From Kordia antarctica (GTDB taxonomy: Bacteria; Bacteroidota; Bacteroidia; Flavobacteriales; Flavobacteriaceae): DNA of 64,000 bases. Of this stretch, positions 12,946-48,017 are shown piece by piece. The stretch spans positions 2,013,501-2,077,500 of the forward strand of contig NZ_CP019288.1 of the NCBI RefSeq assembly GCF_009901525.1. Direction: 5' to 3'. Each line of letters opens with the position of its first letter. Positions within the stretch are counted from its first letter, which is position 1. The translations under genes were made by a program, and so were the position numbers. The notes beneath the pieces were generated by a model that saw only the letters and a list, made by a program, of their open reading frames with translations, did not search any database and was not told the DNA's origin.

Positions 12946-15900
12946 TTATCTCTTCAATGTAAAATGATTGATGAATTCTTTTGGCGAACCATCAAACGGA
13001 TCTACATATTCTACTTTGAACCAATAATCAGCTGATGGCATTGGTGTTCCGTTGTACGTTCCGTCCCAACCTTGTCCTGCTGGACTTATTTGCTTGAGAA
13101 GTTTTCCATATCTGTCAAAGATGTAAATCCTCGCACCTGGTTGATTTCTGAGTCCAATTATATTCCATGTCGGATGGTATTCATCTCCGTTTGGTGTAAA
13201 GAATTGCATAAAGTCGATTAGCTCGAATGTTCTTACAAGTTCGCCACAACCGTTATTGTCTCTAACTGTTACGGTATGTTCGCCTGGTTGTAAGTCTAGG
13301 AATGTTCCATCTAGTTGCCAATCGCCGTCATCTAATTGATATTCGTAACTACCTGATCCGCCACTAGCGGTTGCAACAACATTGTGTGTATCTGCAAAAG
13401 CTGGTGTGGTAACTTGTATGTCTAGTATACTTGGTGCTGATGACGCCTGATACGTTACACTATCATCAAAAGTACAATTGGTTGCGTTGTTTCCGTCAGT
13501 TACAATTACGCTATACGTTCCTGCTTGATCTACAGTAACTGTTGCGTTTGCGGAAGTCCCACTTGGTGTTGTCCACTGATACGTGAATCCTGCGCCAAAG
13601 TCTGAACCTATTGTTCTGATTTCTGTTGCCAATCCTGTAGTTGCATCTACACACAGAATATCATCTGCTGGCAAGCTAAATACTGGTAATGGATTTACTT
13701 GTAACATTACTAGTATTGGATCGGATAAACAACCAGTAATCGTTTGTCTCACTCTCGCAAATAGTGTTTGCGGATTTGAAGTGTTTGTATAACTCGTTGC
13801 ATTTGCAATTGCATTGATATCTGCGTCTGCATCTACCATATTTTCATAATACGCTACTGCCATGTCCATTTGCCCGTTTATGATTGTAGCATCAAGCGAA
13901 GTTAAATCAAATACGGCGGTATCTTGATCTGCCTGATCTGTTGCACAAAGTTCATAGGTTGGTGGCGCAGTTGCCGTTGGAATTGGTTCTACACTGAGCT
14001 CCAAACTTGCAATGTTATTGGTGTTTACACATCCTGTAGTTGTATTTACTACGCGAATGAAAACCGTTTGTGGATCGGTTGTGTTTTCAAATCCGTTGGC
14101 TAATGCGCCTGTTCCAGCTAAAGCATCTGCCACAGTTGGATGATAGGTTACTGTAAAGTCTGCTACATCTTGCGGAGTTGTTAATAAATCTAGCGAAGCT
14201 GTAACAACATCCCAATCAAATTGACCTACATTATCATTGTCATATTCACAAAATACATAGGTAAAAGCAATATCTGTTAGCACTGGAAGTGGATTTACCA
14301 CAACTGGTAATTCTACCACTTTATAACATGGAAGCATGTTGCTATCAATCTGAATATCACTTTCTACTCGCACATAGATAATGACTTGTCCGTTTGCATT
14401 GGCTGTTGCCATGTCCACATTGTACATCATTGGATTAGCAATTGGATTGATGTCATCATTCGCATCTTCAACCGTTGTGTGGTAACTTACGCTCACATTA
14501 CTTTCATTGTCTACAATTTCATCTTCTGATTGAGTTAAATCGAAAATAAGCATTCCGTTAGTTGCATCTCCATCGCTGTCGTCATCACACGCTTCTAAGA
14601 TTGTTGGCGTTGTGTTTGGCGTTGGAATTGGAAGTACACGAAGTGTCATGGTAATATCTGTGGTACATCCTGCCGAATTGGCTGCTTGAATGTAAATCAC
14701 TTGCGGATTCGTTACGTTTTGATACGCTGTTGGATCTGCAATTGGTGTATCACTGTTTAAGTCTGCTTGATTTGCATAATAGGTAAGAGTTAAACTCGTA
14801 TTACCACCTGTGATTTCGATGTATTTTTCAGTAAGATCGAAGGTTGAAATTTCATCACTTTCATCGCCGCTTAATTCATCATCACACAATGAAAAAGCTG
14901 TTGGTTGTACAAGTACTGGAGGACCAACTACAATGATATCAAAACTTTCAATTGCGTAACAATCCGTTGCATTGTCTTCTAATCGTACCCAAATGGTTTG
15001 TTGATTGACTACTGTGTTTGTATAGTTTGTAAGGTTTACAATTGGTGAAACATCATCAATGGCATCTTGTTCAGTTTCGTGATAGCTTAGCGTGAAGTTT
15101 CCTGGCGTTTGTGTTCCGTAGATTTCTGTTTGAGTTTCGGTAAGATCGAACATTGCAAAACCATCTAAACTGTTTGCATCATCACATTCTTCTAAGTCTG
15201 TAATATTTAATGGCAATACCGGAATTGGAATTACATTTAATTGCAATGGAGTTACCGTGAAACAGCCAGTAACGGTATTAGTCGCCAAGACATAAATCGT
15301 TTGACTATCCATGACAATGTTTGTATATGGACTCGGTAAAACGTTTAAGTTATTGTTCGCGTCAGCTTCTGTTTCATGAAAAGTGTACACCACATCTGGT
15401 TCGTTGTTGATAATGTCATTGATTAATGCATCTAAATCAAAAGCAGTAAAACCATCATTGTCATCATCACACGTTTCTGCGTCTAGCATTCCACTTGGAT
15501 TTAGTGTTGGACTTGGCAGTGGATTTACTCTAAGATCAAAAGTAATTGTGTTTTCACAGCCTGTAGTATCGTTCGTCGCTTTTACAAAAATGGTTTGTAC
15601 GCCAATTTCTGTATTGCTATACATGGTTGGCGTAGCAATTGGCGCATCGTTGGTTAAATCAGCCATGTTTGCATAGTATTGCAAGCTGATTCCAGGAACG
15701 TTGTTGAGTAATTGTTCTGCTAATGAAGTTAAATCAAAAACTTCAATTCCGTTGTTTAAAGAAATCGCATCACACGTTTCTAATCCTGCAAGTTGCGTCA
15801 GTACTGGAAGCTCGTTTACAATCAGTGTTAGATTTGTAATACTAAAACAATCTGTCGCCATATCTTCCACACGAACCCAAATGATTTGTGGACTTGGTGG

Positions 15901-18900
15901 AATGTTGCTGTAAGCGTTTGTGTTGTTAATTTCTCCTGCGACAGTTCCCGCAATAGCGTTTGCTTGGGTATTATAATAGCGAACCGTATGCGTTGTTGGA
16001 TCTTCTCCATTTAGAATGTCTGTTTCACTTTGGGTGAGGTCGAACTGCGCAATATCATCTGCGGAAGCGTCATCACATTCTGATAAACTTACCGCGTCTA
16101 ACCCAGCAATTTCTGGAGAATCATGCACGATTAAAGCAAGTGGAACTACATTGAAACAACCTGTAATTACATTTTCTACACGAACATAAATTGTTTGATT
16201 GTATGCGTTGATATTTGTATATGTATCAGCAAGTGGATTCACATCATTGTCTGCATCTTCTGGAGTTTCGTGGTAAGTAACTGTTACCTGACCTGGAATG
16301 ACGCCGCCTGTAACTTCACTTTCTGTACTTCGAATGTTAAAGATTCCGAAACCATCGTTGTCTGTGTCGCAGTATTCTAAAGGTGTTGCTGGAAAAACCG
16401 CAGGCGTATCATTGATGTTTACGGTAAGTTGTGTGGTATTATGACAACCAGTATTGATATCTTCTACACGAACAAAAACAGTATATGTAGTTGGTGTAGC
16501 TGTATTTTCATAAGGCATTACAAGCGCATTGACATCGCCATCTGCATCGCCTTGCGTTAAGTGATAGGATACATTTAAGTCTGGATTAGAAGCTGTAATT
16601 TCATCATTTTTAACCGTCAAATCTGTTGGTGCTATTCCGTCTGCTGTTTCATCGTCACACGCTTCTAACGTAGTAGGTGTTACTACTACTGGCAACGGCG
16701 GAACTTGCAATTCAAAGTTTCCTACTTGCACACATCCAAGTGGATTTACCGCGCGAACCCAAATAAGTTGCCCGTCTGTACCATTTACATTGGTAACAGC
16801 ACCCATATTTGTATCTGCGTCTATTTCTGTCAAATGATACGTAATGGTTAAGCCAACTTGTCCGTTTTCCACAGTAGTGGTATGCATCGTTAAATCAAAC
16901 ATTTCCATCATGTCGCCTGGATTGTTAAAATCACACGCAATCATTGGTGGAATGTTATCTAGGTTTGGAAGTGGATCTACAATAAGTGTTACTTCTACAA
17001 CATCAAAACAACCTGTTATATTATCTTCTACACGTGCATAAATAATTTGTAATGAAGGTGTTGTTGTTGTGTATAAACCTACTATTTCTGTTCCTGCAAC
17101 GCCAGCTTGCGCTACTGTCTCATCTTCATAATAGGTTACCGTAGCAGTTCCTGCCAAAGCTCCTAATATTTCAGCATCTTTGGTTGACAAGTCAAAAGTT
17201 CCAAGTCCATTGGTATCATTTCCGTCAGAATCATCACATACGCTATACGGTGTTGGTGTGTTAGCCGTGATACTTGGATTTACTTGCAAGTCTAAAGTAG
17301 AAGTATTGGCACAACCTGTAACCGTATTTACGATACGAATATGCACCGTTTGCATGTTTATCGTTGTATTGGTATACGGAGAAGCAAGTGCTGTTCCGAC
17401 TCCAGTTTGTGCTTCGCCTGGCGTTTCGTAATAGGTAATTGCCATTGCATCCGTAGAAGTTTGTCCCGCTAGGATTTCTGCATCAGCATCTGTTAATGTA
17501 AAAGGAGCAAATCCGTCGCCATCATCATCACATTCTTGTAACATTGTTGGTATTACCGGAATTGGTAATGGATTGACAGTTATTTGGAAACTCGTTGTTG
17601 CAGCACATATATTTGTTGCATCGGAACTTGTAACGCTTACATATATTGTTTCTGTTGGATTCGTATTTGTATACGTTGTTGGTAATGGATTTGTGTTTGT
17701 ATCTGCATCTGCTTGTGTAGCATGGAAGTTTACATCTATCAGCAAAGGATCTTGTGCTCCACTGATTGCTGGAATTTGCATTGTGAAATCAAATGTTTCA
17801 GTTCCGTCATTAGAAGCATCATCACACACAATCATATCTGCGGGTTGCGCAGCAGTTGGTTGATAATCTACACAGATTTCGAAATTCGTAGTATCAAAAC
17901 ATGTAGCATTTGTAGTGTTTGCTATACGTACATAAATTTGTTCACAAGGATTTGTATTTGAGTATGGAACTGCTAAAGGGTTTGCTCCTGAATCAGCATC
18001 TGCTTGTGAAGCGTGATATGTAATTGTATATAAGGCAGCATTTTGTGTTCCTAATACTGCAGTTTCTTGTGCTACAAAGTCAAATATTGCTGTTCCGTCA
18101 TTAGTATCATCATCACAAACGGTAATATCCGCAACCACATTTGCTATTGGCAACACGTCAACTACTACGTTAAATTGCGTTGTAGACACACAACTTGTTG
18201 CATTATTTTGTACTCTCACTACAATTAGGTCCGAAGGACTCATATTCGGGTACATTGAAGGTAAAGGATTTGCATTTGCGTTTGCGTCTGCAGTACTTCC
18301 GTGATAACTTATGGTAAAGTCAGCAGGATTTTGCGCTCCTAATATAGTGGGAAGTTGTGAATCTAAATCAAATGTTTCTACGCCATCATTAGAAGCATCA
18401 TCACAAACAACCATATCTGGTGCTGTAGTTAGTGTTGGCTCAGGATTTAAGATTAAGTCAAAAGATGTTACCGCAAAACAGGTAGCACTGTTGTTATCTT
18501 GAACTCTGATATAAATATCATCAATTGGTGCTGTTGTATTTGTATGTAAACATGGAAGTGGATTCAGGTTTGCATCTGCATCAGCTTGTGTATCATGATA
18601 TGAAACCGTATAGTCAGCAGGATCTTGTGTTCCTAATGCTAAAGCAGATTGCGAACATAAGTCAAATTCTTCTAAACCATCATTTCCAATGTCACATGCT
18701 ACTAAATCTGGCACTACATTCGCCGTTGTATTTCCTATGTTTAATGTGAACGATTCTGTTTGAAAACAATCAACAGCAGTTGTTCCTGTGTAAGATATTC
18801 TTATAAAAATAACTTCTCCATTAGTTCCCGAATATGCTTGTGCTTGTGCAAGTGTTAAAGCTCCTGTTCCTGCATCTGCATCCGCTTGCGATAGATGATA

Positions 18901-20559
18901 GGTAACTTCCATATCAGTAGTATCTGCAATTGGTGCTAATACTTGTGCTGTATTTACAGTTAAATCAAATATTTCTGTAGCATTGTTAGAACATACAGAT
19001 AAGTTTGAAGCTGGTGCATTGTTAATTTCTAGAGCTACATCAATACAAACTGTTTCTGTGTATGTACATCCTAAATCATCTACTGCTTCATATGTGTAAC
19101 AGTGTTGCCCTGGCGTTGTTGGTTGCACTGTAATTACGTTTCCTGTTGTATCTGTAATAGATGCATCTGGTAGCCACATTTCTGAATCAATTACAGGTGT
19201 AAATGATTCATCTGCTGGTAAAATAGAAGGATCAAAATCTAATCCCCAACTAAAAATATAGCCGTTATCAATACCTATATTATCTGTAACTCTTATTGTC
19301 CAACTTCCATTTAATGGACTTCCAATAAGATCATCAAAACCATTTCCATCTATTGGCAAATATGTTCCTGGCTGCCATGAATTTCCTGGAGGATTTGATC
19401 CTGCAGTAACTGTAGGTGCGCCTGCGGCAAGTACTTGAGTTCCTGCTAATGAAAAACAATAATCTGCTCCTACTCCTGGAGCTGTACCATTATCATCATT
19501 AGCACCACCAAAATAAGTTCCACTACCCGATTGTAAAAATAAATCTGCTTCTTGCCCATTTGGACTTATAATAATAATATCTAAATCTCCAGAGTATGAA
19601 TGCTCAATGTTTAAACATATTCGAAATAATTCAGCTCCTGCTGTTAACGTTTGTCCTGAATCAAAACAATCTACCACAACTGATGTTTCATACGAAACTC
19701 CGTTTCCATCTGGTAAAAAAGTCTGTCCACTTACTGGAGGTGTACATTGTACAATATATGGTGTCGGTGTTACGACTCCTGAAATTGTTGTATTATCACC
19801 AAAACAAATAAAATCATCCGTTGCTTGAGTTCCAGCAAAACTTGGTGTTGTCGAAACTCGTACTATTTGATTTATAAGGTTATCATTGGTACAATTGTTT
19901 GTATCTGTAATATTTAAGTTTACAATGTATGCTCCTGCATCTGGATATGTGTGTGTTACTACTTGTCCCATTTCAGATGTACCATCGCCAAAATCCCATT
20001 GATATTGTGCGCCTGTACCATCTGATGTAAAAGTACCACTTCCGTTAAAAGTAACGGAATCTCCTTGACATAGTTCAATGATATCATTTGTGTCTGCCGC
20101 AGGAATTGAAGAATCTATTTGTGAATTAATTGTTTGACAAGGCGTCACACATGAAATATCTGCCGCCCAACCAATGTTTACACCTGCTGCATCCGAAATA
20201 AATTCTATAGTAATACAACCTGAAGTGTTTGAATTTGTTGCAATTACAGTTCCCGGACTTACTGTTCCAGTAAATGCTCCAAATTGCGGTGCCGTGGTAT
20301 CATCGCCGTCGTAGATATTCATGAAGTCACTCATGTCTTGCAATCCAAATGATGTAAATACCAATTGAACCTTATCTCCTGCATTATCAGGACATATGGT
20401 CATTACAAAGTTTTCGTCGTTTGAATATTGTCCTGCGCCGCCGCCGCCAGTATCTAAAAATGTACCTTGACATATATTAAAGGTACCATTTTCAATGATG
20501 ACATTTTGTGCGAAACAAAATAGTGGTGCTATAAGAAGTAAGAGAACTAATTTTTTCAT
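12946..20559 (-). CDS. Giant T9SS adhesin C: CUB, PKD and P-domain head, repeat stalk, type B sorting domain
   Basis: This 2537-residue protein has a signal peptide ending at FCFAQ. Residues about 20-135 resemble a CUB domain (DFMNIYDGDDTTAPQFG, CITIEFISDA). A PKD domain follows (YQWDFGDGTSEMG, VTHTYPDAGAYIVNL), then a proprotein convertase P-domain at about 275-460 (HSYSGDLDIIIISPNG, GSWTIRVTDNIG). About 18 stalk repeats with a CDDxxxDG start continue to about residue 2330. A SprB-like segment (TASGGSGSYEYQLDDG) and a type B sorting domain (FFTPNGDEYHPTWN) end the protein. The head lacks a protease domain, so the P-domain is probably a binding module. The gene starts 9 bp after a small secreted-protein gene and is followed after 33 bp by adhesin B. 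Confidence 0.95.
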   Translation of the reverse strand: MKKLVLLLLIAPLFCFAQNVIIENGTFNICQGTFLDTGGGGAGQYSNDENFVMTICPDNAGDKVQLVFTSFGLQDMSDFMNIYDGDDTTAPQFGAFTGTVSPGTVIATNSNTSGCITIEFISDAAGVNIGWAADISCVTPCQTINSQIDSSIPAADTNDIIELCQGDSVTFNGSGTFTSDGTGAQYQWDFGDGTSEMGQVVTHTYPDAGAYIVNLNITDTNNCTNDNLINQIVRVSTTPSFAGTQATDDFICFGDNTTISGVVTPTPYIVQCTPPVSGQTFLPDGNGVSYETSVVVDCFDSGQTLTAGAELFRICLNIEHSYSGDLDIIIISPNGQEADLFLQSGSGTYFGGANDDNGTAPGVGADYCFSLAGTQVLAAGAPTVTAGSNPPGNSWQPGTYLPIDGNGFDDLIGSPLNGSWTIRVTDNIGIDNGYIFSWGLDFDPSILPADESFTPVIDSEMWLPDASITDTTGNVITVQPTTPGQHCYTYEAVDDLGCTYTETVCIDVALEINNAPASNLSVCSNNATEIFDLTVNTAQVLAPIADTTDMEVTYHLSQADADAGTGALTLAQAQAYSGTNGEVIFIRISYTGTTAVDCFQTESFTLNIGNTTANVVPDLVACDIGNDGLEEFDLCSQSALALGTQDPADYTVSYHDTQADADANLNPLPCLHTNTTAPIDDIYIRVQDNNSATCFAVTSFDLILNPEPTLTTAPDMVVCDDASNDGVETFDLDSQLPTILGAQNPADFTISYHGSTADANANANPLPSMYPNMSPSDLIVVRVQNNATSCVSTTQFNVVVDVLPIANVVADITVCDDDTNDGTAIFDFVAQETAVLGTQNAALYTITYHASQADADSGANPLAVPYSNTNPCEQIYVRIANTTNATCFDTTNFEICVDYQPTAAQPADMIVCDDASNDGTETFDFTMQIPAISGAQDPLLIDVNFHATQADADTNTNPLPTTYTNTNPTETIYVSVTSSDATNICAATTSFQITVNPLPIPVIPTMLQECDDDGDGFAPFTLTDADAEILAGQTSTDAMAITYYETPGEAQTGVGTALASPYTNTTINMQTVHIRIVNTVTGCANTSTLDLQVNPSITANTPTPYSVCDDSDGNDTNGLGTFDLSTKDAEILGALAGTATVTYYEDETVAQAGVAGTEIVGLYTTTTPSLQIIYARVEDNITGCFDVVEVTLIVDPLPNLDNIPPMIACDFNNPGDMMEMFDLTMHTTTVENGQVGLTITYHLTEIDADTNMGAVTNVNGTDGQLIWVRAVNPLGCVQVGNFELQVPPLPVVVTPTTLEACDDETADGIAPTDLTVKNDEITASNPDLNVSYHLTQGDADGDVNALVMPYENTATPTTYTVFVRVEDINTGCHNTTQLTVNINDTPAVFPATPLEYCDTDNDGFGIFNIRSTESEVTGGVIPGQVTVTYHETPEDADNDVNPLADTYTNINAYNQTIYVRVENVITGCFNVVPLALIVHDSPEIAGLDAVSLSECDDASADDIAQFDLTQSETDILNGEDPTTHTVRYYNTQANAIAGTVAGEINNTNAYSNIPPSPQIIWVRVEDMATDCFSITNLTLIVNELPVLTQLAGLETCDAISLNNGIEVFDLTSLAEQLLNNVPGISLQYYANMADLTNDAPIATPTMYSNTEIGVQTIFVKATNDTTGCENTITFDLRVNPLPSPTLNPSGMLDAETCDDDNDGFTAFDLDALINDIINNEPDVVYTFHETEADANNNLNVLPSPYTNIVMDSQTIYVLATNTVTGCFTVTPLQLNVIPIPVLPLNITDLEECDDANSLDGFAMFDLTETQTEIYGTQTPGNFTLSYHETEQDAIDDVSPIVNLTNYTNTVVNQQTIWVRLEDNATDCYAIESFDIIVVGPPVLVQPTAFSLCDDELSGDESDEISTFDLTEKYIEITGGNTSLTLTYYANQADLNSDTPIADPTAYQNVTNPQVIYIQAANSAGCTTDITMTLRVLPIPTPNTTPTILEACDDDSDGDATNGMLIFDLTQSEDEIVDNESNVSVSYHTTVEDANDDINPIANPMMYNVDMATANANGQVIIYVRVESDIQIDSNMLPCYKVVELPVVVNPLPVLTDIAFTYVFCEYDNDNVGQFDWDVVTASLDLLTTPQDVADFTVTYHPTVADALAGTGALANGFENTTDPQTVFIRVVNTTTGCVNTNNIASLELSVEPIPTATAPPTYELCATDQADQDTAVFDLTSLDATIINGQMDMAVAYYENMVDADADINAIANATSYTNTSNPQTLFARVRQTITGCLSDPILVMLQVNPLPVFSLPADDILCVDATTGLATEIRTIGSDFGAGFTYQWTTPSGTSANATVTVDQAGTYSVIVTDGNNATNCTFDDSVTYQASSAPSILDIQVTTPAFADTHNVVATASGGSGSYEYQLDDGDWQLDGTFLDLQPGEHTVTVRDNNGCGELVRTFELIDFMQFFTPNGDEYHPTWNIIGLRNQPGARIYIFDRYGKLLKQISPAGQGWDGTYNGTPMPSADYWFKVEYVDPFDGSPKEFINHFTLKR
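13280..17500 (-). repeat. Long near-identical block shared by adhesins C and A
   Basis: Positions 1 to about 4220 and 13280 to about 17500 align at a constant offset of 13279 bp. Opposite-strand translations are identical over at least 2916-3101/16195-16380 and 3565-3762/16844-17041, meaning even silent sites agree. Beyond about 4220 the two copies diverge quickly. Adhesin B shares the part nearer the C-terminus at a constant offset of 6826 bp from A. This points to recent duplication or ongoing gene conversion. The outer limit is approximate. Confidence 0.85.
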
Positions 20560-24223: not shown

Positions 24224-24250
24224 ATACTGAATCAAGTTCAGCACAAGCTT
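24224..24250 (+). repeat. Short dispersed repeat, copy 1
   Basis: Atactgaatcaagttcagca followed by CA is 22 nt long and recurs exactly at 26084-26105; the match extends to 27 nt with one mismatch. The core CTGAA-TCAAG-TTCAG is itself an inverted repeat. Confidence 0.7.
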
Positions 24251-25943: not shown

Positions 25944-25975
25944 TAAAAAAATACAAGTTCATTTCTTTTTAACAT

Positions 25976-26283
25976 GAGTTCGACATAAGTTTACTCAAAT
26001 AAAATTCTGAACACATTTTCGCAATAAGTAATAAGTATGTCATTTTCATATCATTATTTTCGTTTTCTTTGCTCGCACAAAGAATACTGAATCAAGTTCA
26101 GCACAGGCTTCAACAAAAGAAAGTGCGCTTTTCCAGAGGTATTTTTAGTTTTTCTTTTAGGGAAAAACTAAAACCGCATGAATTTTTCTAAATTTTCTCC
26201 AAGGATTCGAAAATTCTTAACGAAAAACCCCTGCTATACTGCGGAAAAGACAAAAAAACACCCTGAAATTTTAGATCGAACTC
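25976..26283 (+). mobile_element. MITE-like dispersed element, copy 1 (308 bp, carries a 32-bp insertion)
   Basis: This non-coding segment matches 47731-48006 in inverted orientation over its whole length. It is bounded by inverted ends GAGTTCGA (25976-25983) and TCGAACTC (26276-26283). It contains a perfect 12-bp stem TTTTAGTTTTTC/GAAAAACTAAAA. Relative to the other copy it carries 32 extra bases (26085-26116) including the short repeat at 26084. It ends 40 bp before a small peptide gene. No transposase is present, so movement would need one encoded elsewhere. Confidence 0.7.
26084..26110 (+). repeat. Short dispersed repeat, copy 2, nested in the MITE-like element
   Basis: The 22-nt exact match to 24224-24245 sits inside a 32-bp segment absent from the second MITE-like copy, so it looks like an insertion into the element right beside its internal palindrome. 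Confidence 0.7.
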
Positions 26284-26323
26284 AGGTTTTTAGTATATTT
26301 AGAAAACTTAAATTCACAATTAT

Positions 26324-26464
26324 ATGAGCATTTTCCATTATTTATCTTCGGCAGTATTAAAGAAAATAAAAAAGAATCCAGTTTCTGATTCTTCAAAAAT
26401 ACTCGGAGGCGCAACAAATTCTGAAGCTGAACAAAATCATGTAGATTCATATTACCACTCATAA
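26324..26464 (+). CDS. 46-residue GG-containing peptide, candidate RiPP precursor
   Basis: The peptide has an amphipathic basic N-terminus (LSSAVLKKIKKNP), then SDSSKILGGATNSE and a polar C-terminus ending VDSYYHS. The GG at residues 28-29 resembles a double-glycine leader cleavage site; that would leave a 17-residue core rich in Ser, Thr, Asn, His and Tyr with no Cys. Its stop lies 3 nt before the start of a glycosyltransferase gene, which implies translational coupling. I recognise no family. The reading as a modified peptide is inference from size, GG and position; a short upstream leader ORF is the alternative. Confidence 0.5.
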   Translation: MSIFHYLSSAVLKKIKKNPVSDSSKILGGATNSEAEQNHVDSYYHS

Positions 26465-26467
26465 TTT

Positions 26468-27328
26468 TTGTTCTTATCCGTTTGTATACTCACTAAAAAC
26501 GAAGCGTCTAATATAAAATCTTGTCTAGATTCTGTAAAAGAAATCGCAGACGAAATTATTATATTGGACTCTTTTTCTACGGATGATACAATAGCTATTG
26601 CTGAAAATTACACTTCAAAAATTTATTTTAAAGAATGGATTGATGATTTCTCTTTTTCAAGAAATTTCGCAATATCGAAAGCTAATGGCGATTGGATCTT
26701 AATTATTGATGCTGATGAAAGGTTTGTATTTGAAACTAATTTCATAGCTAGATTAAAAGCTACAAAAACCAACGCTTTTTCTATTATTAGAAAAGAGATG
26801 TACAGACAGCAACATGACTTGAAACAAGTAAAATATCCTGTTACCATCATCCGATTGTTTAAACGAGAAACGAATGCTACGTTTGAATATCCAATTCATG
26901 AAAGATTAGACGATTTTTTTACGAAAGAAGGAATCCAAGTTGCATTAAATCAAGATTGTTATTTAGAACATCACATTAGTTTAGACATTGAACATGTTCA
27001 CTCAAAACAAGAGAACTATTTAGCATTGATAGCTAATTATCTACAGAAAAATCCAACTGATGATTGGTTAACGTATCAAAAAATTAAAACTTTAAAGTAC
27101 TTCAAGAAAAACGAACAGGTTTTTGATCTGATTAAAACGTTTAAAACCAAAAATCTAAAAATTAGAACTGCCACAACCATTATATTAAGTCAACTATATA
27201 TGGAAAGTGGAAAATTAGACGATGCAATCAGCACATTAAGAAGTTTGCCAAAACCTAATAATAGTACGATAGTACATATGCTATTGGGAGATTGTTACTT
27301 TAAAAAAAAAAGCCTCTTCACGCTTTAA
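26468..27328 (+). CDS. Family 2 glycosyltransferase, SunS-like layout, tail separated by a frame change
   Basis: The ORF starts at TTG 3 nt after the peptide gene. The catalytic GT-A part is intact: LSVCILTKNEASNIKSCLDS, EIIILDSFSTDDT, FKEWIDDFSFSRNFAI and the metal-binding DWILIIDADERF. A PIHERLDDFF segment follows, then helical TPR-like repeats from about residue 190. The order (GT2 then TPR) and the wording of these motifs resemble SunS, the S-glycosyltransferase of sublancin, as well as many Bacteroidota GT2-TPR enzymes. The frame ends at 27328 shortly after a run of ten A (27302-27311). The continuation lies in the -1 frame (next feature); the intact protein would be about 391 residues. 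This may be a frameshifted gene, a slippage-expressed gene or a homopolymer error. Confidence 0.85.
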   Translation: MFLSVCILTKNEASNIKSCLDSVKEIADEIIILDSFSTDDTIAIAENYTSKIYFKEWIDDFSFSRNFAISKANGDWILIIDADERFVFETNFIARLKATKTNAFSIIRKEMYRQQHDLKQVKYPVTIIRLFKRETNATFEYPIHERLDDFFTKEGIQVALNQDCYLEHHISLDIEHVHSKQENYLALIANYLQKNPTDDWLTYQKIKTLKYFKKNEQVFDLIKTFKTKNLKIRTATTIILSQLYMESGKLDDAISTLRSLPKPNNSTIVHMLLGDCYFKKKSLFTL

Positions 27329-27642
27329 AATATTATCTCAGATTAAAAACTTCAAGCAAATCTATTGACTTTGAGCAAGCAATGTATATCCTTAGCTACT
27401 GCGAAAAAGAGGACAAAGTATACAAAATTGCAAGTGTTTTATACACTCTGAAATCATACTTTTTATGTATTCTTTATTTAGATGTAAACAAAAAATACTT
27501 ACAAGCAGATTCACTACTATTATATGCTTTGATTTTCTTAAAAAAGGATGATAAAAAGCAAGCTTTGAAGTTTATAAGAAAAGCTAGAGAAAAGGATCAA
27601 TATTGGAAAAAATTGATTGAATTAGAGAATCTATATACATAA
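27304..27642 (+). pseudogene. TPR-like C-terminal part of the glycosyltransferase in the -1 frame
   Basis: This frame opens only inside the A10 run (TAA at 27301-27303 precedes it) and continues the helical repeat pattern: PLHALKYYLRLKTSSK, EQAMYILSYCEKEDK, SLLLYALIFLKKDDKKQAL and KFIRKAREKDQYW. Joined across the run, GDCYFKKKK and PLHALKYYLRL form a normal TPR helix pair. An internal ATG at 27382 could start a separate 86-residue product, but the sequence upstream of it is clearly part of the same domain. Confidence 0.75.
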
Positions 27643-35180: not shown

Positions 35181-35336
35181 ATGAAAACTAAAAACTTAAA
35201 CAATTTATCATTAAACAAAAAATCAATTGCAACCTTTACACTAACTGGCGGAAGAGCGCAACCAATAACAAATGTGACAAATATTACTTGTGTTGGAATT
35301 TGCGAAAATTCTAAAATTATATGCGATCAAGAATGA
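35181..35336 (+). CDS. Class I lanthipeptide-like precursor peptide 1
   Basis: The 51-residue peptide begins with KNLNNLSLNKKSIATF, which matches the Bacteroidota class I lanthipeptide-type leader pattern (L-x-L-x-K-x-x-I-x-x-F/L). TGGRAQP follows, with a GG that could be a cleavage site. The presumed core has five Thr/Ser and three Cys (TCVGIC and IIC), so Thr-Cys or Ser-Cys thioethers are possible. The gene has a TAACTTTA box at 35148-35155 and its own terminator at 35371. No LanB, LanC, peptidase or ABC exporter lies in the window. It shares a C-x3-C-E-xn-C core with the peptide at 52665-52832. Confidence 0.75.
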   Translation: MKTKNLNNLSLNKKSIATFTLTGGRAQPITNVTNITCVGICENSKIICDQE

Positions 35337-47730: not shown

Positions 47731-48006
47731 AGTTCGATATAAAAACTAGGAGTGTGTTTTTTGTCTTTTCCGCAGTATAGCAGGGATTTTTCGTTAAAAA
47801 TTTTTGAATCCTTGGAGAAAATTTAGAAAAATTCATGCGGTTTTAGTTTTTCCCAAAAAGAAAAACTAAAAATACCTCTGGAAAAGCGCACTTTCTTTTC
47901 TTTGTGCGCACAAAGAAAACGAAACTAAAAATATGACAATCAGATACTTATTACTTCTTTTTAAAATATGTTCAAAATTTTATTTGAGTAGATTTATATT
48001 GAACTC
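47731..48006 (-). mobile_element. MITE-like dispersed element, copy 2 (276 bp)
   Basis: This is the inverted, uninterrupted counterpart of 25976-26283. Its ends are agttcgatataaa (47731) and tttatattgaact (ending 48005), an imperfect terminal inverted repeat of about 12 bp. It carries a perfect 24-bp palindrome at 47896-47919 (centre tgtgcgcaca) and the same 12-bp TTTTAGTTTTTC hairpin. It fills the gap between two convergent genes. No ORF is present. Confidence 0.75.
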
Positions 48007-48017
48007 ACATTAGTTTA

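Follow-up and report, generated by a model that had tools for sequence, protein, structure and literature searches.

Small peptides ending in Tyr-His-Ser directly precede a clade of SunS-like glycosyltransferases in Kordia and other Bacteroidota and are candidate acceptors of these enzymes

Is a short open reading frame (ORF) that stops just ahead of a glycosyltransferase (GT) a gene in its own right, and is its product the acceptor of the enzyme that follows? This question is raised by a locus of Kordia antarctica, studied here within a window of 64,000 nucleotides (G000:C1:2013501-2077500) of the 5.5 Mb genome. On the plus strand of the window, positions 26324..26464 encode a peptide of 46 residues, MSIFHYLSSAVLKKIKKNPVSDSSKILGGATNSEAEQNHVDSYYHS, with a basic amphipathic N-terminus, an ILGGA sequence, an acidic tail and a C-terminal SYYHS. 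Three nucleotides behind its stop, a TTG codon at 26468 opens a protein of the GT2-TPR type, in which a family 2 glycosyltransferase domain is joined to a helical part with tetratricopeptide repeats. The original prediction had read the pair as a double-glycine (GG) peptide coupled to a SunS-like GT. Its description of the letters is borne out: the 46-codon ORF, the GG at residues 28-29, the Cys-free tail of 17 residues, the three-nucleotide spacing and the SunS-like wording of the GT (EIIILDSFSTDDT, WIDDFSFSRN and IDAD) were all seen again. As for its order of GT2 followed by TPR, the GT2 domain of the first frame matches Pfam Glycos_transf_2 at 68.3 bits, above the cut-off, and the TPR matches of that frame fall below theirs.

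Orthologues of the peptide, 60-62% identical, occur in three other Kordia genomes, and the peptide was detected in four of the 60 genomes of relatives searched, all of them Kordia. Four of 11 Kordia genomes have both the peptide and the close GT (E below 1e-160). The remaining seven contain only distant GT2 matches (∼61-74 bits), and no credible peptide was found in them. We did not count a weak match in G001 (E 0.34, with two stops inside), one in G009 (E 0.0128, profile positions 8-30) and those in 12 further genomes of the family (E 0.014-0.047); all of these weak matches end by position 35 of 45, so that the C-terminal motif is uncovered in every case. Among the four Kordia peptides 24 positions are invariant; some of these are N-terminal and others form the GG, part of an [IVL]GGA motif. 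The N-termini are charged and amphipathic. The nonsynonymous rate (dN, 0.04-0.28) is below the synonymous rate (dS, 0.24-1.53) in all six pairs, with ratios of 0.14-0.36. The Kordia peptide is under purifying selection.

The test that the original prediction had set itself, conservation of the peptide next to homologous GTs, was extended beyond the genus. A scan of genome contigs with an alignment of the GT, in which exact short motifs were required, recovered 206 relatives, the best 80 of which represent 79 loci. Among these best 80 of 206, the relatives next after Kordia belong to Flavobacterium saliperosum (43%), Chryseosolibacter histidini (30%) and Chryseobacterium sp. 36-9 (53%), the last a metagenome-assembled genome (MAG) in which the GT match is cut by a contig end. 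Each has an upstream ORF of 40-46 residues: MITYLITLVSCLFGTQSDDVATETQSNGVEVNYNVDQTEVDAFYHS in F. saliperosum, 10 nucleotides from the first GT start; MYFLISLLISVFGLSDAGQADQADKGVVVQQEKPGSFYHS in C. histidini, 67 nucleotides from it; and MLNLFTFIIALLFGNNDNSNHVSADTTNVVIHQNEIDSFYHS in Chryseobacterium sp. 36-9, at 15 nucleotides. When ORFs of 25-150 residues with a stop between -90 and +60 nucleotides of the match start (not always the true GT start) were inspected at the 79 loci, one ending in [FY]YHS was present at the six closest loci and at none of the other 73. A search with the GT alone found two carriers among 128 genomes of the C. histidini family, C. histidini itself and a second genome, G1138. 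By then the motif was already known from seven peptides, and G1138 came to light solely through the similarity of its GT, so that the rule held for an eighth. The G1138 peptide, MAYIFYLIASVAGLFGGDAEGTKANSDNTEEAAAFYHS, has 38 residues from the inner ATG that we adopt (48 from a TTG as mechanically listed), and its stop overlaps the GTG start of the GT by one base. The peptide is thereby conserved directly ahead of homologous GTs in Flavobacteriaceae, Weeksellaceae and Chryseotaleaceae, as the families are named on the tree labels. The first GT start codon is TTG or GTG in seven of the eight carriers and overlaps the peptide stop or lies within 15 nucleotides of it, the 67-nucleotide gap of C. 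histidini being the exception. A weak GT start overlapping or near the peptide stop suggests that translation of the enzyme is coupled to that of the peptide. The pairing is real, and the peptide is more than a chance ORF.

All eight peptides, 38-46 residues long, end in [FY]-Y-H-S. Their alignment has no invariant residues other than Met1 and the terminal Tyr(-3), His(-2) and Ser(-1); in the window the codons of this Tyr-His-Ser occupy 26453..26461 on the plus strand. The GG is present in five peptides and absent from three, so the extreme C-terminus, not the GG, is the conserved element. We dismissed the GG as a defining feature, and the original reading of a GG peptide does not extend to the whole family. 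Endings were also counted among 13,178 distinct ORFs of at least 25 residues from the window and the collected loci, which had been chosen for their GT neighbourhoods; ORFs were taken as distinct by their last 25 residues. Ten of them end in YHS and eight in [FY]YHS, and the latter are exactly the ORFs ahead of this GT clade. The codons of the motif vary between species (TAT/TAC, CAT/CAC, TCA/TCG/TCT, with TAA or TAG as the stop), and therefore it is the protein sequence that is kept, not the DNA. The first 12 residues are hydrophobic or amphipathic in all eight peptides (Kyte-Doolittle mean 0.84-2.44). Seven peptides are free of Cys and the F. saliperosum peptide has one, in its hydrophobic N-terminus, which leaves no Cys in the tails for attachment of a sugar. 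Of the hydroxyl residues, Tyr(-3) and Ser(-1) alone are shared by every peptide; Ser(-5) is present in six.

The eight GTs form one clade with support of 100/100 in a tree of 70 rows, taken from the 238 GT-like ORFs found. The label that marks them requires a single change on this tree, and none of 500 shuffles gave a number as low. The sister lineage consists of 14 rows of Bacteroidota GT2-TPR proteins, 11 of them of 750-790 residues. None of the sister-lineage GT ORFs examined is preceded by an ORF ending in YHS (ORFs of 20-150 residues, -150 to +90). Sister-group proteins, mostly of 750-790 residues, are found at L126, L127, L130-L132, L134-L137, L013, L016 and L017; the one at L137 has 842 residues and is cut by the end of the stretch. 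Judging by their sequences, the proteins of 750-790 residues are possibly two GT2-TPR units in line, because the whole-protein scores are far above the single-match scores. Loci of Lachnospiraceae (L014, L021, L032, L060, L073 and others) contain rows of paralogous GT2 genes of ∼350-400 residues each.

In a profile search of solved structures the best match was GmaR (22ao, 4.8e-37, profile positions 2-196), with SunS at 6.6e-28 and 1.3e-27 and 7msk at 7.2e-22. GmaR is the O-linked N-acetylglucosamine (GlcNAc) transferase of Listeria flagellin and places its sugar on Ser and Thr of the protein. The GT of F. saliperosum was modelled with AlphaFold2 (mean predicted local distance difference test score, pLDDT, 93.2; predicted template modelling score 0.87), and the model was compared with solved structures by Foldseek. 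Ranks 1-6 were SunS and ThuS with a probability of 1.00; the best, 7msn, 7msp and 7msk, had E values of 7e-17 to 7e-16 and template modelling scores, by query, of 0.54-0.58. The enzyme predicted to be SunS-like thus resembles SunS and ThuS in the modelled fold, at least in its GT half, and GmaR and SunS in sequence. Eight residues are invariant in the six full-length GTs of the clade: R108, K119, P124 and Y141 in the GT2 half, and Y185, W201, K321 and W384 in the C-terminal half. They recur in 0-8% of 13 sister ORFs, and Y141, Y185, W201, K321 and W384 in 0-9% of 33 more distant ones; the comparison was made without the window and Chryseobacterium fragments. Residues fixed in the clade and nearly missing from its sister lineage, in both halves of the sequence, are what would be expected if the clade has a partner of its own.

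The GT of the window is not the single gene to 27642 that had been predicted. Its first frame, which contains the GT2 domain with a DAD motif and the start of the helical part, is assigned from the ORF, Pfam, the orthologues and the predicted fold of the F. saliperosum relative; it runs on the plus strand from the TTG (26468..27328, 286 residues). The remainder of the C-terminal part continues in another frame, with a first ATG at 27382 (27382..27642, plus strand, 86 residues). The frame is broken at ten consecutive A (27302..27311). Both pieces match the intact orthologues of 391-394 residues in Kordia jejudonensis, Kordia periserrulae and Kordia sp. TARA_039, with identities of 61-65% for the first and 72-74% for the C-terminal piece. 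The GT of K. jejudonensis has a long A-run at the same site with the frame open, so that at least two species have a homopolymer here. The break may stem from sequencing error, from phase variation or from a recent loss; with its GT frame broken, the pair in the window is probably off, phase-variable or affected by sequencing error.

We consider it slightly more probable than its contrary that the GT2-TPR enzyme glycosylates its paired small peptide, the two genes forming a cassette. That the peptide receives a sugar is argued by analogy, from relatives that act on proteins or peptides. The cassette would yield a small peptide together with a GT dedicated to it, the weak GT start (TTG, or GTG overlapping the peptide stop) presumably leaving substrate in excess over enzyme. 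The SunS/ThuS-like enzyme would recognise the extreme C-terminus of the peptide, possibly via a groove of its TPR part, and O-glycosylate it. We infer that the C-terminus is read because the motif is strictly C-terminal and because of TPR biology: TPR domains of Hop bind the C-terminal carboxylate of Hsp70 and Hsp90, according to excerpts of PMC3314626. Going by the alignment, the likeliest sites of the sugar are Tyr(-3) and Ser(-1), because no other hydroxyl residues are common to all eight peptides; Ser(-5) and Ser or Thr of the linker would be alternatives. In Kordia the GG would permit a C39 exporter from another locus to remove a leader. Where the GG is lacking, the hydrophobic N-terminus would more likely be retained as a membrane anchor or signal.

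The surroundings of the pair differ between lineages. F. saliperosum and Chryseobacterium carry, directly before the peptide, a second GT-like protein (318 and 330 residues as listed), and the two are 37% identical over 323 columns (E 1.6e-58). The name GT-like rests on marginal scores, because the F. saliperosum protein is just below the Pfam cut-offs (PF03407, 21.2 of 22; PF01501, 18.5 of 24.3) and Pfam gives nothing at 0.1 for the homologue in Chryseobacterium. A predicted structure of the former from a two-row alignment had a mean pLDDT of 50.3 and was not used. In these two lineages the GT-like protein may add a further sugar. The order in Chryseobacterium is response regulator (Response_reg, GerE), GT-like gene, peptide, GT2 and TPR-HisKA_3 histidine kinase; it is inferred across a gap because the GT2 is split over two contig ends. 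The GT-like gene overlaps or abuts the regulator, and the kinase starts five nucleotides after the GT2 stop. In G1138 the GT is followed (L174 4228-9225) by a cluster of its own, of the type that makes ribosomally synthesised and post-translationally modified peptides. It encodes an MvdD-like ATP-grasp protein (59.1 bits), a ClpP-like protein, MauE, AhpC/TSA and an ATP-binding cassette (ABC) transporter lacking a C39 domain, 3.5 kb behind the GT. The peptide of this cluster has 58-74 residues and ends in GYHPGTDSGAWC.

The original prediction had suggested looking for a C39-peptidase exporter in the carrier genomes. A C39 match, partial matches included, is present in 13 of 15 genomes (the eight carriers and seven other Kordia). 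None lies near a pair: the distance is 124 kb in G1138 and at least 688 kb in the window genome, and elsewhere the matches are on other contigs. The expectation of a nearby exporter is thus not borne out. The peptides of F. saliperosum and C. histidini, which have no C39 match at 1e-5, lack the GG; that of the Chryseobacterium MAG also lacks it, yet this genome has one C39 match. Among the ORFs around the pairs, read mostly by eye and not scanned, no saccharide-assembly cluster was seen, in keeping with the original prediction, which such a cluster would have contradicted. No flagellar gene was recognised by eye among the listed neighbours, most of which had no family scan.

Several of our results weigh against glycosylation of the paired peptide. 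The acceptor residue is fixed no further than the Tyr and Ser of the motif, and a C-terminal motif right before the stop would fit an arrest or leader peptide too. TIGR04195, the SunS family, is the best NCBIfam match of these GTs, but the scores are 71-86 bits (77.8 for the first frame in the window, then 76.8, 86.1, 71.2 and 71.1) against a cut-off of 350, which places them outside that family. The shorter 7msp chains of SunS superpose on the model with a root-mean-square deviation of 4.0 across 293-294 columns, and the longer chains, full-length SunS and ThuS, poorly, with 13.5-15.2; in the model, therefore, the GT half seems to fit, with the helical half arranged differently. Among the 33 more distant ORFs some of the clade-invariant residues recur (R108 in 55%, P124 in 30%, K119 in 15%). 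Proteins of the GT2-TPR type are common, and the substrates of many may be saccharides. Beside the Kordia pair we recognised no gene for an exporter, for immunity or for an oxidoreductase; a C39 match is missing from two carriers, and the GT of the window itself is frame-broken.

Alternatively, the peptide might be a partner subunit rather than an acceptor, with its N-terminus in the membrane and its YHS tail holding the GT, thereby anchoring or activating the enzyme for a different target, for instance a surface protein or a saccharide. The hydrophobic or amphipathic first 12 residues of all eight peptides and the invariant tail are consistent with this, as is the ability of TPR domains to bind C-terminal peptides (excerpts of PMC3314626). 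Nevertheless we think this reading unlikely, since the closest solved GTs act on proteins or peptides, the Kordia [IVL]GGA motif is of the leader type, and the charged amphipathic N-termini there are not membrane-spanning. The same tail invites another explanation, that the ORF is a regulatory leader in which the terminal FYHS stalls the ribosome at the stop, so that stalling or coupling sets expression of the GT and the peptide has no later function. The motif sits exactly at the stop in all eight while the N-terminus varies between lineages, and the overlap or spacing of at most 15 nucleotides in seven of eight would suit such a device. In those seven, however, almost no intergenic sequence is available for a regulatory hairpin, and the stop codon itself varies between TAA and TAG. 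Conservation in Kordia covers the whole peptide, where the 24 invariant positions extend to the N-terminal part and the GG, and the peptide is found only with one GT clade; a leader function appears to us distinctly improbable.

A third possibility is a special case of peptide glycosylation and not its opposite: the glycosylated peptide could be a secreted signal, as in peptide quorum-sensing operons. Chryseobacterium speaks for it, with the regulator adjoining the GT-like gene and the TPR-HisKA_3 kinase five nucleotides behind the GT2. This arrangement was seen in one of five lineages and depends on a presumed join of two contig ends, and we recognised no such kinase or regulator next to the pairs of Kordia, F. 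saliperosum and C. histidini; we regard a signal as quite unlikely. Returning to glycosylation of the peptide by its GT, a broader form can be put forward only tentatively, as a minority possibility. It would be a class of glycosylated Bacteroidota peptides in which an [FY]YHS-COOH tag is read as a free C-terminus and glycosylated by a TPR-bearing GT2. The N-terminal half would be exchangeable, either a GG leader with C39 export or a hydrophobic anchor, and in at least one lineage the product would be a signal sensed by the adjoining TPR histidine kinase and response regulator.

The cassette is rare in the Bacteroidota genomes sampled. A close GT is present in two of 397 genomes of the family, both Kordia; in F. 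saliperosum alone among 249 genomes of its genus; and, for the Chryseobacterium MAG, in no genome but its own among 23 of its genus and 246 of its family. In a sample of the phylum the GT was matched in 18 of 395 genomes, and the 17 besides the window genome represent other GT lineages. The thresholds of the A3 GT searches were 1e-40 to 1e-50, at which more diverged members would be missed. We considered and set aside carriage by plasmids or phages. With the F. saliperosum GT as the only query, no plasmid matched at 1e-25, and four phage records matched over at most 37% of the query; 17 viral-contig loci (query A3) were distant matches of at most 43% identity over part of the query. A defence system was likewise rejected: of five proteins compared with PADLOC, four had no match and one a weak match of 21 bits.

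In all four Kordia carriers the two genes ahead of the pair are identical in kind. They encode a protein of 287-293 residues, which we take to be Lgt, and one of 158 residues, which is DUF192 in the window. The neighbours of the Kordia pairs, read by eye and mostly without a family scan, are apparently housekeeping genes. The element resembling a miniature inverted-repeat transposable element (MITE) noted upstream of the peptide gene is there: it spans 25971-26288, with imperfect inverted ends of 18 nucleotides (25971-25988/26271-26288). A copy of 80% identity lies ∼21 kb away on the opposite strand (47731-48007), and a 27-nucleotide piece at 24224-24250. We also rejected an RNA element at the locus: the window has no Rfam match at gathering scores, and between 25600 and 27800 there are 11 promoter-like sites, with a shuffle mean of 10.8, and no terminator-like site.

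A peptide of 51-53 residues resembling class I lanthipeptides occurs in three Kordia genomes (window 35181-35336, L007 7251-7412, L008 7252-7413). Its NF038153 scores are 17.5 and 18.1 bits, and 12.9 for the TARA_039 copy, with a cut-off of 22. The window copy is 51% identical to the other two, and in all three genomes the peptide directly adjoins a gene that we take to be SecDF-like. In K. periserrulae and TARA_039 the peptide, of 53 residues, lies behind the GT; we rejected it as a third part of the cassette. It belongs to the SecDF-like neighbour, because its window homologue is beside that gene, 7.5 kb away. At the other side of the window, 1-20559 is occupied by large repetitive protein genes on the minus strand, one of 2537 residues (12946-20559), with repeats spaced by ∼6.5-6.8 kb and stretches that are up to 96-100% identical.

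Peptides of only 38-46 residues may be overlooked by gene callers, for that very reason. If peptide and GT act as proposed, an [FY]YHS-stop directly before a GT2-TPR gene would serve as a search rule for further members, and the recognition element would be a very short C-terminal tag that could yield a compact glycosylation tag. Excerpts of the open-licence literature, including PMC9576775 and PMC10734526, contained nothing on this cassette. Singh and Rao reportedly described glycocin clusters beyond Firmicutes in 2021. The experimentally identified glycocins are from Bacillota and carry sugars on Ser, Thr or Cys (excerpts of PMC9576775, PMC8620827). In the excerpts consulted, glycocin precursors may be GG-free (PMC12457901, PMC12139839), as is that of thermoglycocin (PMC12457901), and the leader is dispensable for the GTs tested there (PMC12139839).

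Our system shares with the SunS and ThuS systems of sublancin and thurandacin a GT2 with a helical C-terminal part and an adjacent small precursor, the ORF of the putative precursor adjoining the GT in all eight carriers. It differs in the low TIGR04195 scores (71-86 against 350 bits), in the missing Cys-rich core with disulfides, in the C-terminal YHS as the motif, and in the Kordia pair having no recognised exporter, thiol-disulfide or immunity gene. A GG-type leader together with a C39 ABC exporter in the cluster is likewise not found. As far as the sequences indicate, with no Cys core, scores far below the SunS cut-off and no C39 exporter nearby, it is not a glycocin by definition. The Bacteroidota GT2-TPR proteins of 750-790 residues are the sister lineage in the tree; 11 of the 14 rows are about twice as long, and no YHS-ending ORF was seen upstream where examined. 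Enterocin F4-9 is likewise a small peptide with O-linked sugars, GlcNAc added by EnfC on Ser37 and Thr46; unlike the peptides here, it is a bacteriocin of Bacillota accompanied by an ABC transporter and an immunity gene of its own (excerpts of PMC8620827). GmaR, the best sequence match among solved structures, is also the antirepressor of MogR and controls flagellar genes through it (excerpts of PMC9638930), whereas here a private peptide of 38-46 residues precedes the enzyme. If the proposed reading is true, peptide glycosylation of the SunS/GmaR kind would extend from the Cys-rich bacteriocins of Bacillota and flagellin to Cys-free peptides of Bacteroidota.

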